This document shows positions 25,366 through 29,122 of a stretch of DNA of 64,000 nucleotides, one piece after another; the stretch's first letter is position 1; the number at the start of each line of letters is the position of its first letter. The stretch covers positions 62,001-126,000 of the forward strand of contig JAJKFJ010021234.1 in NCBI GenBank assembly GCA_027382625.1, read 5' to 3'. Both the position numbers and the translations under genes were made by a program. Below the pieces are notes generated by a model, which worked only from the letters and a program-made list of their open reading frames with translations, was not told the origin of the DNA and did no database searches. Source of the DNA: Tetmemena sp. SeJ-2015 (lineage: Eukaryota; Ciliophora; Spirotrichea; Sporadotrichida; Oxytrichidae).

Positions 25366-28300
25366 ATGAACAGCTCTCTTTACAGTGCAGCAGCTCCTTC
25401 AGGCTCGATAAAATAATAATATGGATTCCAGCCAAGTTCCCAACTCATGGCACACCTTCCCCAACAACAGCAGATTCTCCAACAAAACACTTACTTCCTT
25501 AATCCATCACAAATGTTCGCTTAACCTAAACTAAAAATATACACAAGCTATATTTTAACCTCAAATGGTACTTACTTCTGGATAGCTCTTTCATTAATCC
25601 CAAGGTCAGGCTTTTAAATTAGAAAATATTCATCATAGTTTAGAGATTAAACATTTTATAAGGCTGGTAATACTAGCTAGGAATAGCAAGCAAAGTGTTA
25701 GAATTAGCAACTAATAAATAGCGCTTTGGTGAGCAGCCAAAATTTCGTGCCAGCTCAAGTAGCTCCTCAGACTTCAAGTTTCGTAAACCAACCACTCACA
25801 TCCCTCTCCCATTCAAACTTAAAAGATAAACATGAGTTTAAATTATAAATTTACTAAAACCAAGTCCTTTAATTCTCACAGAATTAAATTCCTCTCACAA
25901 CTACATCCGGGATGATTAACTCCGTTGCACATAACTTCCTACAAAATCTTATTTTAGTATTCTCTCTATATATATGCTAATCAAGTTCAATTCTCCGGCT
26001 CTTAGTTTAAATTTATAGTAGTGTGTCTAGGCAAACACAGGTTAGAAAGTACCAGCGCTTCCAAATTCACTTTAAGATAAATTTCTTCTTTGAATTATAT
26101 CAGTGTGATGAATTATAAAAAAATTAGGTTTATGTCCTCCTCTCAGATTCAATAATTACAGTCCTAAAGCACCAATTACTCTCCCAATTTTCATCGATCT
26201 TTAAAGATTTTAATTTTCTTTCTTTTTCCAATTTGACTGGAGAATAGATGAGGCTTCAATACGTGATTGTATTTATGAGCATTTAATTAATTTTGACTGG
26301 TTACAACCCCAGCGCTTAAATGGGAATGCTAGGTCAAAACAGTCAGCAGATGTCTCTCTGTGCTAACACCTTAAATGCTTTCCAAAACAGTAACATCAAC
26401 GCCCTTGAGCAATAAAAGTTGGCTTCTCAGTACATCTCATCACAAAATATATCCTCATTTGCTCAAACTGTGTAGTTTAATTTTTATCTCTGGAAGTGGA
26501 CTGGCGAATAATTTCTAGTATATTTAAAATCACCAACACCTTTTTAAAAATGGCTCTCTCTTCACTCAGAGCTAGATTATCTACATTTCATTTTTCACTT
26601 TAAGAAATTTGTAGATATGTGATCCCTAAAATACTCAGCAATCTCAGTTTATTTCTTATTAAAACAATAATTTATGCGTGCCTATTATTTTGGTAATTTC
26701 ATAAAGACAAAATGGAATGATGTCAGCTCTAAACCCATCTCTCCAGTGCTCTGGTGTGCACAATCAACAAAATTATCTTTCAACAAATTAATAGCTTGTC
26801 AATGTAAAATCACTATAATAATTTCACTTATTATTTATTCAAATGTACAGCCTAATTCTATTACCAACATGTAAAATAGCTCTGAGTTGGGAGGAAAAGG
26901 AAATACAAAATGATACTTCAGTTTACTGATCAAAGTCAAGGAGATCAACAAAGTGACTTTTAGAAAAAAATAGATTTGGGAATAAGCAAGAAGCCCTTCA
27001 CGAAAAAATGCAATTTGAATGATTCAGATTGTAGCTAGTGCAATATATGTGCTAAATACTTCAAACAAAAGGCCCAGCTTTCCAAGCATTCACTTTAAAC
27101 AAAAGTCATTTGTTCAATTGAAGATTAAGGTTTTTATATTGCAAAAAGCACGGTCTTAACGGCTAAAGGTTTGATTCCACAGAGGAGGATGACGAAGATG
27201 ATGAAGACCTTGAGGATGATGAAAATATTACTCAAAATATTATTTAGAAAATTTATACAGTAGGATAATTTTTTAATAATGAATTATTTAGTTTAAAGTA
27301 TTAAAATTTTTAAACTATTTTGTTTTTTATTGTCAATATCGACATAATTGTTGATAAACAACTTATTAATTCTATAACTGGATTTAAATAGCTTAAAATA
27401 TGATGAATAATTAAATTTGAGCAATCTCAGGAACAAGAGGTAAGCACCCATTTTCCATTATTAATTTTAAGGAGCGAGTTGTCCTTCTATTTAATACTCG
27501 GAATTAAACTCCTGTTTATTTCAAATATAATACCTCTGCTTTTTTTATTCTCAAAATTAAATATATCTTAAAATAAATTGAAAATTCATTTAAATGTAAT
27601 GCTAATAATTTAGAGTGAGTGCATCTCATTTTATATACTAGGCTAAAATCAATAAATTGTCAAAATAAGCAAATTTATATCCATACCACATTTTCTACTA
27701 TGAATTCAATCTCTGAGATCTTAGAGATGAATAAATAAGTTAAAGGAATGGAATACAACCAAAAATTAAATTGACATCACTTTAATGATACCACATAAAA
27801 TTTATAAACTTTAATTAATTCCCTCTCTATTGTATTAATAATAAATAGTTTTTATAAATATTCTCATACGTAAAATCAGAGCAATAAATTTACTTTAGGA
27901 TTCACGCAAGAAAATAAAAGTGTTTTTTCTTTTCTATATTTGAATTACAGCGACTTCTTTAGACAAGCACCAACTGGAAGGGTGCGGAGACTCACTTGGG
28001 GCTTAAGAATGCTTCGAGGAATCTTTTTCTTCCTTGGTCAGCATTCATAAAACTAATCAGCCAAAAATATAATTTACGTCTATGCATTTATTCGTTTATA
28101 ACAATTGTGTGTAAAATTAAAAAATATTTGATGATTCCCTCAATGGAAAGCCTTCGCAAGTAAAGTGAGCTCTGCTCTTCCTCGTCAAAAAGCTTGTAGC
28201 AGATGCCACTCCTCGATTGCTTGACTTCTCACTTACCAATTATTACAATATCATAATTCAATATGTTTGAAGCATTATTTTTTAATTTAAAAATACTAAC

Positions 28301-29122
28301 TATCATGGCTAAGAAATTTATATTATAAATTGTTATCACTCTTTTGAATGAAGAAACTTTATGATACTAATATATTTGCATCTTTCCTCTTCAGAGGGAT
28401 AAATTTTGACTAAAAGCTATATTAAGGTTTATTAATCTATGGAATCCACTCATCCACTCAATCAAATATATTTTGCTCTTTACGATGACCACTTTTTTAA
28501 TAAAAATTGCTATTTTTGGCAAACTAAGTCGAACGGAGTTAACTAGTAGGAACAAACAATATCACATATATTTCACATGAATATAAATCTTAACCTCGTA
28601 AAATCTCTCGCCCAACTCTCTAAATAATACAACCCTCCTATATTCTATCTCTTCTATCTCTTCTATCTCTTCTATTTCTTCTTTTCTTTTCGCTCTAACA
28701 AAATATCTTTCTATCATCCAAATTGCAAATTACCCATGAAGAATATTTATGTGTTTATGAGTTGGGAGGTGAGGGCCAGTAATGCGATAAGCTGAGGAGA
28801 GATCCAAAGAGCCTAGTGAAAATAAAGAGGCAACAGCAAAATATGCTTCAGAAGATTTAAATCGTCAAGCAAGCTCCCATGCTCGCAAAGATAGATGGCT
28901 GCTTCTATTACAAAGTCAAAATACAAGTGACAAGAAGACTAAATTCAGTTTTAATTTGTGCCGAGTGCAAGAAGAGTATATTGAAATTTGATTGACCATC
29001 TAAGAGTTCACTCAGGAGTTAAACCATTCTAGTGCATTATCTAAAAAAATGCTTAAAATATGAATATGATAAATGGGAGAGAGATTTAAGAGCAGAGGGA
29101 GGCTAGTAACTCAGATCACTGA
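25366..29122 (+). CDS. Gln-rich C2H2 zinc-finger protein, scrambled germline gene
   Basis: A probable transcription regulator starting MNSSLYSAAAPSGSIKQQYG. A long Gln/Ser/Asn-rich region (25366-26894) is followed by a zinc-finger C-terminus that reads only after unscrambling. IESs in the linear part include 25524-25554 (pointer TTAACCT) and about 25617-25664 (AGGC). From 26883 on, coding segments alternate between two blocks (26883-27215 and 28758-29122). Joined in pointer order they give SSELGGEGQQCDK, KIDGCFYYKVKEINK, the finger [46 protein letters not shown] and KWERDLRAEEDDEDDEDLEA. The product ends SNSDH at TGA 29120-29122. The HSGVKPF segment is the standard inter-finger linker. Three joins need one extra A in A-runs (near 26957, 27167, 29044), probably undercalled homopolymers. 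Role in DNA binding is inferred from the fingers. Confidence 0.75.
26883..27215 (+). other. Scrambled MDS block 1 (even-offset segments n, n+2, n+4, n+6)
   Basis: This block holds the end of segment n (to 26894), n+2 (26931-27113), n+4 (27135-27176) and n+6 (27180-27215), separated by gaps of 36, 21 and 3 bp. Boundary repeats shared with block 2: TGAGTTGGGAGG (26883-26894), CAAAGTCAA (26931-26939), ATTTGT (27108-27113), TATATTG (27135-27141), TTTGATT (27170-27176), CAGAGG (27180-27185) and GAGG (27212-27215). Confidence 0.75.
27216..28757. other. AT-rich DNA between scrambled blocks
   Basis: This separates the two blocks of the scrambled zinc-finger gene. Two less AT-rich islands (about 27950-28050 and 28140-28235) read open for about 30-35 codons but match nothing. 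They might be coding segments of other loci. A short pyrimidine tandem repeat lies near the right end. Confidence 0.4.
28644..28685. repeat. Pyrimidine microsatellite (TCTATCTCT-like)n
   Basis: About four tandem copies of a 9-base TCTATCTCT unit, degrading into TTTCTTCTTTTC. It is low-complexity, within the spacer of the scrambled gene. No function is visible. Confidence 0.75.
28758..29122 (+). other. Scrambled MDS block 2 (segments n+1, n+3, n+5, n+7)
   Basis: Partner block of 26883-27215. Segments: n+1 28758-28919, n+3 28954-28983, n+5 28987-29098, n+7 29099 to the stop at 29122. Gaps are 34, 3 and 0 bp. Boundary repeats: TGAGTTGGGAGG (28758-28769), CAAAGTCAA (28911-28919), ATTTGT (28954-28959), TATATTG (28977-28983), TTTGATT (28987-28993), CAGAGG (29093-29098), GAGG (29099-29102). 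They occur in the same order as in block 1, as required for alternate joining. Confidence 0.75.

Follow-up and report, generated by a model that had tools for sequence, protein, structure and literature searches.

Odd/even scrambled genes and the locus studied here

Odd/even scrambled genes are known in Oxytricha, Tetmemena and Euplotes woodruffi, and the sections of PMC9797194 and PMC5940158 devoted to them describe pointers of 2-20 bp, those of scrambled junctions being longer on average than those of non-scrambled ones. For Oxytricha and its relatives, the parts of PMC9797194, PMC5940158, PMC10901763, PMC2394655 and PMC4684698 that deal with the process describe recombination at the pointers as RNA-guided, with a single copy of each pointer retained. 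The window analysed here is a stretch of 64,000 nucleotides from Tetmemena sp. SeJ-2015 (positions 62,001 to 126,000 of contig JAJKFJ010021234.1), and positions below are those of the window. With high confidence, its plus strand carries an odd/even scrambled germline gene for a zinc-finger protein of about 400 residues, the 3' part of which would be assembled across nine pointers from two blocks, A (26883-27215) and B (28758-29123). A first-pass annotation made from the letters alone had proposed such a gene with seven pointers; what it picked out is very likely a genuine gene of this type, although its junction map is only partly right.

The locus resembles the odd/even genes described for these three ciliates in its alternating macronuclear-destined segments (MDSs), its two blocks of the same orientation and the common order of the pointers in both. 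The repeat word, written 1234 1234 in the relevant part of PMC5940158, has nine letters here (123456789 123456789). The pointers of 4-12 bp lie inside the 2-20 bp range described for known genes, and the scrambled pointers are longer on average than the non-scrambled ones (7.3 against 5.5 bp, the latter picked by the splicing program), as in those descriptions. In contrast to the known genes, the map is inferred from germline sequence alone, two pointers overlap by 3 bp and leave an internal eliminated sequence (IES) of 0 bp, and the scrambling is confined to the 3' part of the gene. The local-duplication model for odd/even scrambling (Gao et al. 2015, as described in PMC9797194) is matched, as far as that description goes, by the IESs of one block and the MDSs of the other, which sit between the same pointers, and by the existence of a finger-region paralog that is contiguous in the germline. 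Unlike in the described model, however, the similarity between the blocks appears to be at the edge of chance, and a duplication origin is therefore not established here.

Reading frame and zinc fingers

The alternating route uses nine exact, maximal repeats of 12, 9, 7, 8, 7, 8, 5, 6 and 4 bp, which follow the same order in both blocks. Genes in the window read TAA and TAG as Gln and TGA as stop. Along the route, one frame is open through six pointers, then through eight (383 codons, with 13 TAA, 7 TAG and no TGA), and with the ninth it extends over 399 codons to a TGA. The protein so encoded would consist of a Q/N/S-rich N-terminal part, a basic linker, two tandem fingers (C2H2, then C2HC) and an acidic tail.

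The spacing of the first finger locates the two central junctions. In block B, CAECKK and the piece containing LIDH do not share a frame, and 28 nt separate the second Cys codon from the first His codon, whereas a canonical finger needs 36 nt. Leaving for block A at GCAAGAAG (28967/26986) and returning at AATTTGA (27012/28985) adds exactly 8 nt, and GCAAGAAG is the longest match in the CAEC-LIDH interval. Among 520 two-junction routes from CAEC to LIDH with pointers of at least 4 bp, 106 are open and in frame, and only this one gives C-x12-H; it is also the sole C-x12-H route of the six in which both pointers have at least 7 bp. When block A was shuffled 2000 times, no shuffle offered pointers of at least 7 bp, the right spacing and a hydrophobic residue at C+4, and one did so when the hydrophobic condition was dropped. 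The next junction, CTAGTGCA (29029/27035), is the only one of 73 B-to-A junctions of at least 4 bp that yields H-x7-C-x2-C, and one of 3 that reach at least 8 bp. Upstream, AAGTGAC (26951/28925), CAAAGTCAA (28911/26931) and TGAGTTGGGAGG (26883/28758) hold the same frame; downstream, the route enters the acidic tail through GCATT (27086/29034) and CAGAGG (29093/27180) and reaches the TGA at 29121-29123 through GAGG (27212/29099).

Finger 1 reads C-x2-C-x3-F-x5-L-x2-H-x3-H, in keeping with C-x2-C-x12-H-x3-H, and is joined to finger 2 by the linker SGVKPFQC. These features, together with the canonical spacing of finger 2 up to its first His, are shared with C2H2 proteins (PF00096), among which the best-scoring solved chain by sequence is ZNF568 (5v3m). 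If pointer 7 is GCATT, finger 2 is C-x2-C-x12-H-x4-C and, unlike in C2H2 proteins, ends in H-x4-C. The Pfam model zf-C2H2 scores 34.4 bits over two stretches of the C-terminal 168 residues and 31.6 bits on 393 residues, against a cut-off of 25.2. The earlier statement that neither block encodes the fingers alone agrees with the single-block frames that were scored, all below this cut-off: one frame of block A reached 18.7 bits, and two frames of block B gave no zf-C2H2 match. Other zinc-finger models stayed below their cut-offs on these frames and on the scored pieces of the seven-pointer product, the best being zf-H2C2_2 with 20.1 of 40, and the Q-rich N-terminal and acidic C-terminal parts gave no Pfam match over cut-off. 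The linker motif H-[TSNQ]-G-x-[KR]-P occurs once on the 209-kb contig, in block B, and a search of that whole contig for further finger pieces returned isolated motif matches, none of them convincing. From its fingers, the protein may be a sequence-specific DNA-binding factor.

A contiguous paralog of the finger region

The same assembly holds a paralog that is contiguous in the germline (contig C3057 in our numbering, 43489-43713). Its alignment to the 168-residue product, found after the map had been made, covers residues 62-127 with no gap (66 residues, 42% identity, 63.2 bits) and spans five junctions (2-6). Opposite the block A-supplied KPFTKKCNL of MDS11, the paralog has KPFFKKGNL. The match falls to 58.2 bits if MDS9 is left out, to 37.7 bits for a direct join at CAT considered below, and to at most 26.9 bits, with gaps, for the product of the seven-pointer map. 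In searches of the assembly itself, the corrected product gave an E value of 5.9e-13, against 0.02 for a composite near the seven-pointer product (best matches outside the locus). In the region of this paralog (C3057:42700-43900), downstream and in another frame, there is a further finger-like stretch, YECTQCHSKYYRQYQLNKHIEKFH, which was not seen in the window gene.

Segments of the scrambled part

MDS7-16 alternate between the blocks according to the map deduced from the germline sequence; all are on the plus strand, and their ends are putative. MDS7 ends in pointer 1, TGAGTTGGGAGG, at 26883-26894 of block A, the exact and maximal partner of which lies at 28758-28769; this pointer joins SSELGG to EGQQCDKLRRD in frame. 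MDS8 of block B (28758-28919, EGQQCDKLRRDPKSLVKIKRQQQNMLQKIQIVKQAPMLAKIDGCFYYKVK) ends in pointer 2, CAAAGTCAA, at 28911-28919, with its partner at 26931-26939. Its frame had the best codon score of 13 rows tested, equalled by 1 of 1000 null segments, in a scoring of single segments that is mostly too weak for placing boundaries and in which the two rows for the acidic frame were set out of frame. MDS9 of block A (26931-26957, EINKVT) has 27 bp, of which 11 bp lie between its pointers; it ends in pointer 3, AAGTGAC (26951-26957; partner 28925-28931). MDS10 of block B (28925-28974, RRLNSVLICAECKK) supplies the first two Cys of finger 1 and ends in pointer 4, GCAAGAAG (28967-28974; partner 26986-26993). 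Another part of finger 1 is encoded by MDS11 of block A (26986-27018), which ends in pointer 5, AATTTGA (27012-27018; partner 28985-28991), and is followed by MDS12 of block B (28985-29036), which ends in pointer 6, CTAGTGCA (29029-29036; partner 27035-27042).

MDS13 of block A (27035-27090) contributes to finger 2 and passes in frame through pointer 7, GCATT (27086-27090; partner 29034-29038), a pointer of which we are moderately certain. Pointers 6 and 7 share 3 bp in block B, which corresponds to the 0-bp IES mentioned above. MDS14 of block B (29034-29098, HYLKKCLKYEYDKWERDLRAE) ends in frame in pointer 8, CAGAGG (29093-29098; partner 27180-27185), and MDS15 of block A (27180-27215) encodes the acidic EEDDEDDEDLE and ends in frame in pointer 9, GAGG (27212-27215; partner 29099-29102). 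MDS16 of block B (29099-29123) encodes EASNSDH and the stop codon TGA at 29121-29123, where the 399-codon open reading frame (ORF) closes; it probably continues as a 3' untranslated region. By subtraction, the IESs are 26895-26930, 26958-26985, 27019-27034 and 27091-27179 in block A, and 28920-28924 (5 bp) and 28975-28984 (10 bp) in block B. The spacer between the blocks (27216-28757) is presumably germline-limited, with a guanine-plus-cytosine (GC) content of 0.271 over 27251-28757.

Four 3' ends, including GAGG, were compared, and all are open across the join. Reading straight on in block A gives 455 codons, joining at ACTCAA gives 408 codons, and joining at TTGAGGA gives no stop within the stretch read; these three are less favoured. 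A reading that stays in block B and leaves out the acidic piece is likewise open in the same frame to a TGA. The GAGG end is preferred because, in block A, GC content is 0.50 up to this point (27180-27215) and 0.154 just after it (27216-27241), and because it is 0.481 in block B at 29099-29125.

N-terminal part and GC contrast

The Q/N/S-rich N-terminal part (25366-26894, plus strand) is not scrambled and, once spliced, comprises 253 open codons and 2 nt. It was found by codon scoring and reading, and was spliced by dynamic programming with pointer-limited jumps into MDS1 (25366-25527), MDS2 (25555-25612), MDS3 (25661-25819), MDS4 (25853-25955), MDS5 (26290-26448), MDS6 (26707-26806) and MDS7 (26842-26894), with the six pointers TTAACCT, AGGCT, ACT, ATTTT, ACAAAAT and AATGTA. 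These are the best-scoring boundaries, the pointers ATTTT and ACT being the least certain; training of the codon model drew in part on this gene, and single boundaries are therefore provisional. This part runs into pointer 1 in the frame of the scrambled part, an end frame that was imposed and that is also the best-scoring (66.5 vs 60.8 and 58.8).

GC content is 0.405 in the N-terminal MDSs and 0.267 in the N-terminal IESs, and 0.399 and 0.272, respectively, in the scrambled part under the corrected map. Within block A (MDSs 0.389, IESs 0.278), a contrast as large occurred in none of 332 rotations of the corrected map, compared with 25 of 332 for the seven-pointer map.

Points that weigh against the scrambled reading

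Several observations count against the nine-pointer scrambled gene. The map was found by seeking fingers, so that neither finger spacing nor Pfam score counts as independent support for it, and laxer pointers let shuffled sequence do as well: an open, rightly spaced finger with the hydrophobic residue arose in 14 of 2000 shuffles with pointers of at least 6 bp and in 75 of 600 with pointers of at least 5 bp. Pointers 7 and 9 are short, pointer 9 having 4 bp, and MDS9 can be skipped, as block B read straight on stays in frame. Over both blocks, the GC contrast of the seven-pointer map (0.382 vs 0.258) is as large as that of the corrected map, and the two maps are told apart only by the rotation test in block A; for this reason, GC support is modest. 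GC content also guided the choice of the last pointer. Searched with the DNA of either block, the assembly yields this locus alone; no somatic sequence or transcript came to light, and scans of viral contigs gave no relative. Exact matches of at least 7 bp between the blocks number 18, a count equalled in 8 of 60 real pairs, so the number of block-to-block matches is not exceptional. Finally, all 20 actin-family loci of the assembly with at least two pieces are colinear in our reading of 65 matches, several of these loci being near-duplicates of each other and the grouping on contig C2821 our own; scrambling is thus not the rule in this genome.

The repeats as such must also be set against chance. 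The blocks share 579 exact matches of at least 4 bp and 58 of at least 6 bp. A chain of seven repeats totalling at least 51, the total of the first-pass annotation, occurred in 45 of 200 real stretch pairs and 47 of 200 dinucleotide-shuffled pairs; that chain is itself not unusual. The best chain actually present, with a total of 57, was matched in 3 of 200 shuffled and 1 of 200 real pairs, in a comparison that favours these blocks because they were cut at the ends of the annotated repeats. The 12-mer alone is mildly unusual: 3 of 200 real pairs and 10 of 200 shuffled ones have a match of at least its length. Pointer chains alone are thus weak evidence, since chance gives a seven-repeat chain like the annotated one in nearly one pair in four.

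Alternative explanations

The use or skipping of MDS9 bears on what the locus would make. In both blocks, CAAAGTCAA and AAGTGAC are neighbours, flanking 11 bp in block A (26931-26957) and 5 bp in block B (28911-28931), and both readings are in frame; since both keep frame, MDS9 looks optional. Were more than one product made, with MDS9 used or skipped and with a direct join at CAT giving a separate one-finger protein, the blocks could act as a switch in the germline, with alternative DNA assembly producing different zinc-finger proteins, an idea to which we give little credence.

That direct join, taken as the whole explanation, would make the gene non-scrambled, with a single IES of 1.9 kb between blocks A and B and the 3-bp pointer CAT (27087-27089, 28997-28999), and is very improbable. 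It offers one canonical finger in one frame and a TGA at 29121, in an ORF of about 100 codons from the ATG at 26910; of 16,966 A-to-B junctions of at least 2 bp, 16 put a canonical finger across the join; two of these, CAT among them, have a 3-bp pointer. Colinear actin-family pieces can also lie about 1.65 kb apart. However, fingers are repeats, and their halves fit wherever both share a His codon. The CAT join was rejected: its paralog match reaches 37.7 against 63.2 bits, it does not account for CAECKK, the KLRRDP linker or the acidic tail, and it severs the gene from the Q-rich N-terminal part, which enters pointer 1 in frame.

The seven-pointer map itself, with the junctions 26894/28770, 28919/26940, 27113/28960, 28983/27142, 27176/28994, 29098/27186 and 27215/29103, is very improbable as it stands. 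All seven of its repeats exist in both blocks in identical order (the 12-mer of block B at 28758-28769), its pointers 1, 2, 6 and 7 recur in the corrected map, and its overall GC contrast is as large. It had been claimed that the joined segments build a C2H2 C-terminus, a claim that fails because all three frames of the joined sequence are interrupted, by 10, 4 and 4 TGA codons. Read on from the N-terminal sequence, the first frame runs into a TGA in block A; the part from CNIC to CAEC lies in the second frame, the finger piece containing LIDH in the third, and the acidic tail in the first again. Two open pieces, from two of the three frames, were scored against zf-C2H2 and reached at most 16.7 bits; the gapped paralog match and the rotation count given above also speak against this map. 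What survives is TGAGTTGGGAGG, CAAAGTCAA, CAGAGG and, with low confidence, GAGG, as well as the general picture of two blocks 1.5 kb apart with alternating pieces of a C2H2 gene and an acidic tail running to a TGA. ATTTGT, TATATTG and TTTGATT are rejected because the reading frame and the finger spacing break with them, and AAGTGAC, GCAAGAAG, AATTTGA, CTAGTGCA and GCATT take their place; therefore, the joins 27113/28960, 28983/27142 and 27176/28994 are not expected in the somatic chromosome.

A pseudogene or decayed duplicate, with two broken copies of a single finger gene from which the cell assembles nothing, is equally improbable. In its favour, the blocks, compared as wholes rather than slot by slot, are weakly similar in one gapped scoring (as good in 4 of 300 shuffles and 17 of 300 real pairs), and no somatic copy was seen. 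Against it, the similarity is lower under other gapped scorings (as good in 11, 31 and 35 of 300 shuffles and in 27, 65 and 39 of 300 real pairs), and a decayed locus should not retain pointers whose joins restore frame and spacing.

Genome setting

The contig that contains the window has 209,280 bp and belongs to a 146.2-Mb assembly. Genes in the window are interrupted by pointer-flanked inserts, and, judged by these features and the genetic code, it looks like ciliate germline DNA with short, varied, spirotrich-like pointers. Pieces of old-yellow-enzyme (FMN oxidoreductase, PF00724) genes lie in tandem at 1.1-7 kb and 20-22 kb (1109-7240 and 20124-21896, plus strand) and are broken by small inserts, apparently at the same codon position but with different pointers in different copies. 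Two of these inserts, judged by eye, measure 30 bp from repeat to repeat, with flanks of GGAA (5643/5673) and AGG (20303/20333); the cluster offers a natural series for IES evolution.

Elsewhere in the assembly, 15 actin-family junctions were fitted against one intact actin. The best fit has a pointer of 4-5 bp in five (AATC, TGAAG, TATA, ATCC and TGAT, with inserts of 23-344 bp), of 3 bp in one and of 2 bp in one, and no pointer in eight, which include the two gaps of about 1.65 kb. Actin-family loci with equal or near-equal scores occur on the contig pairs C2293/C3715, C2499/C992 and C4542/C581, and the assembly may hold both haplotypes in places.

An Rfam scan at the gathering threshold and a tRNA scan of the window gave no match. 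On the minus strand, a coding segment at 19193-19411 contains, by eye, VHRDLKPENIM, which we take to resemble a protein-kinase catalytic loop; two coding segments at 36288-36739 (plus strand) presumably resemble ubiquitin C-terminal hydrolase, again by eye. A long low-complexity region at 51526-52243 has a strong GC skew, and several of its frames, on both strands, are open; its minus strand may encode a Thr/Ser-rich repeat.

Proposed assembly and significance

In the scrambled nine-pointer gene, the 5' part would consist of ordinary colinear MDSs parted by pointer-flanked IESs, and the 3' part of odd pieces in block A and even pieces in block B. A zig-zag A-B-A-B path across the nine pointers would produce the somatic chromosome during development; a single copy of each pointer would remain, and the small IESs and the spacer would be lost. 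By analogy with Oxytricha and its relatives, long and small RNAs may guide recombination at the pointers.

This kind of arrangement is already known; no record of this gene was found in the assembly, the viral contigs scanned or the literature searched. The locus adds a scrambled gene with a testable map of nine joins, in an assembly whose multi-piece actin-family loci all look colinear and which also contains a germline-contiguous paralog of its finger region. Reading frame, domain spacing and a paralog can together correct a descrambled map without a somatic genome.

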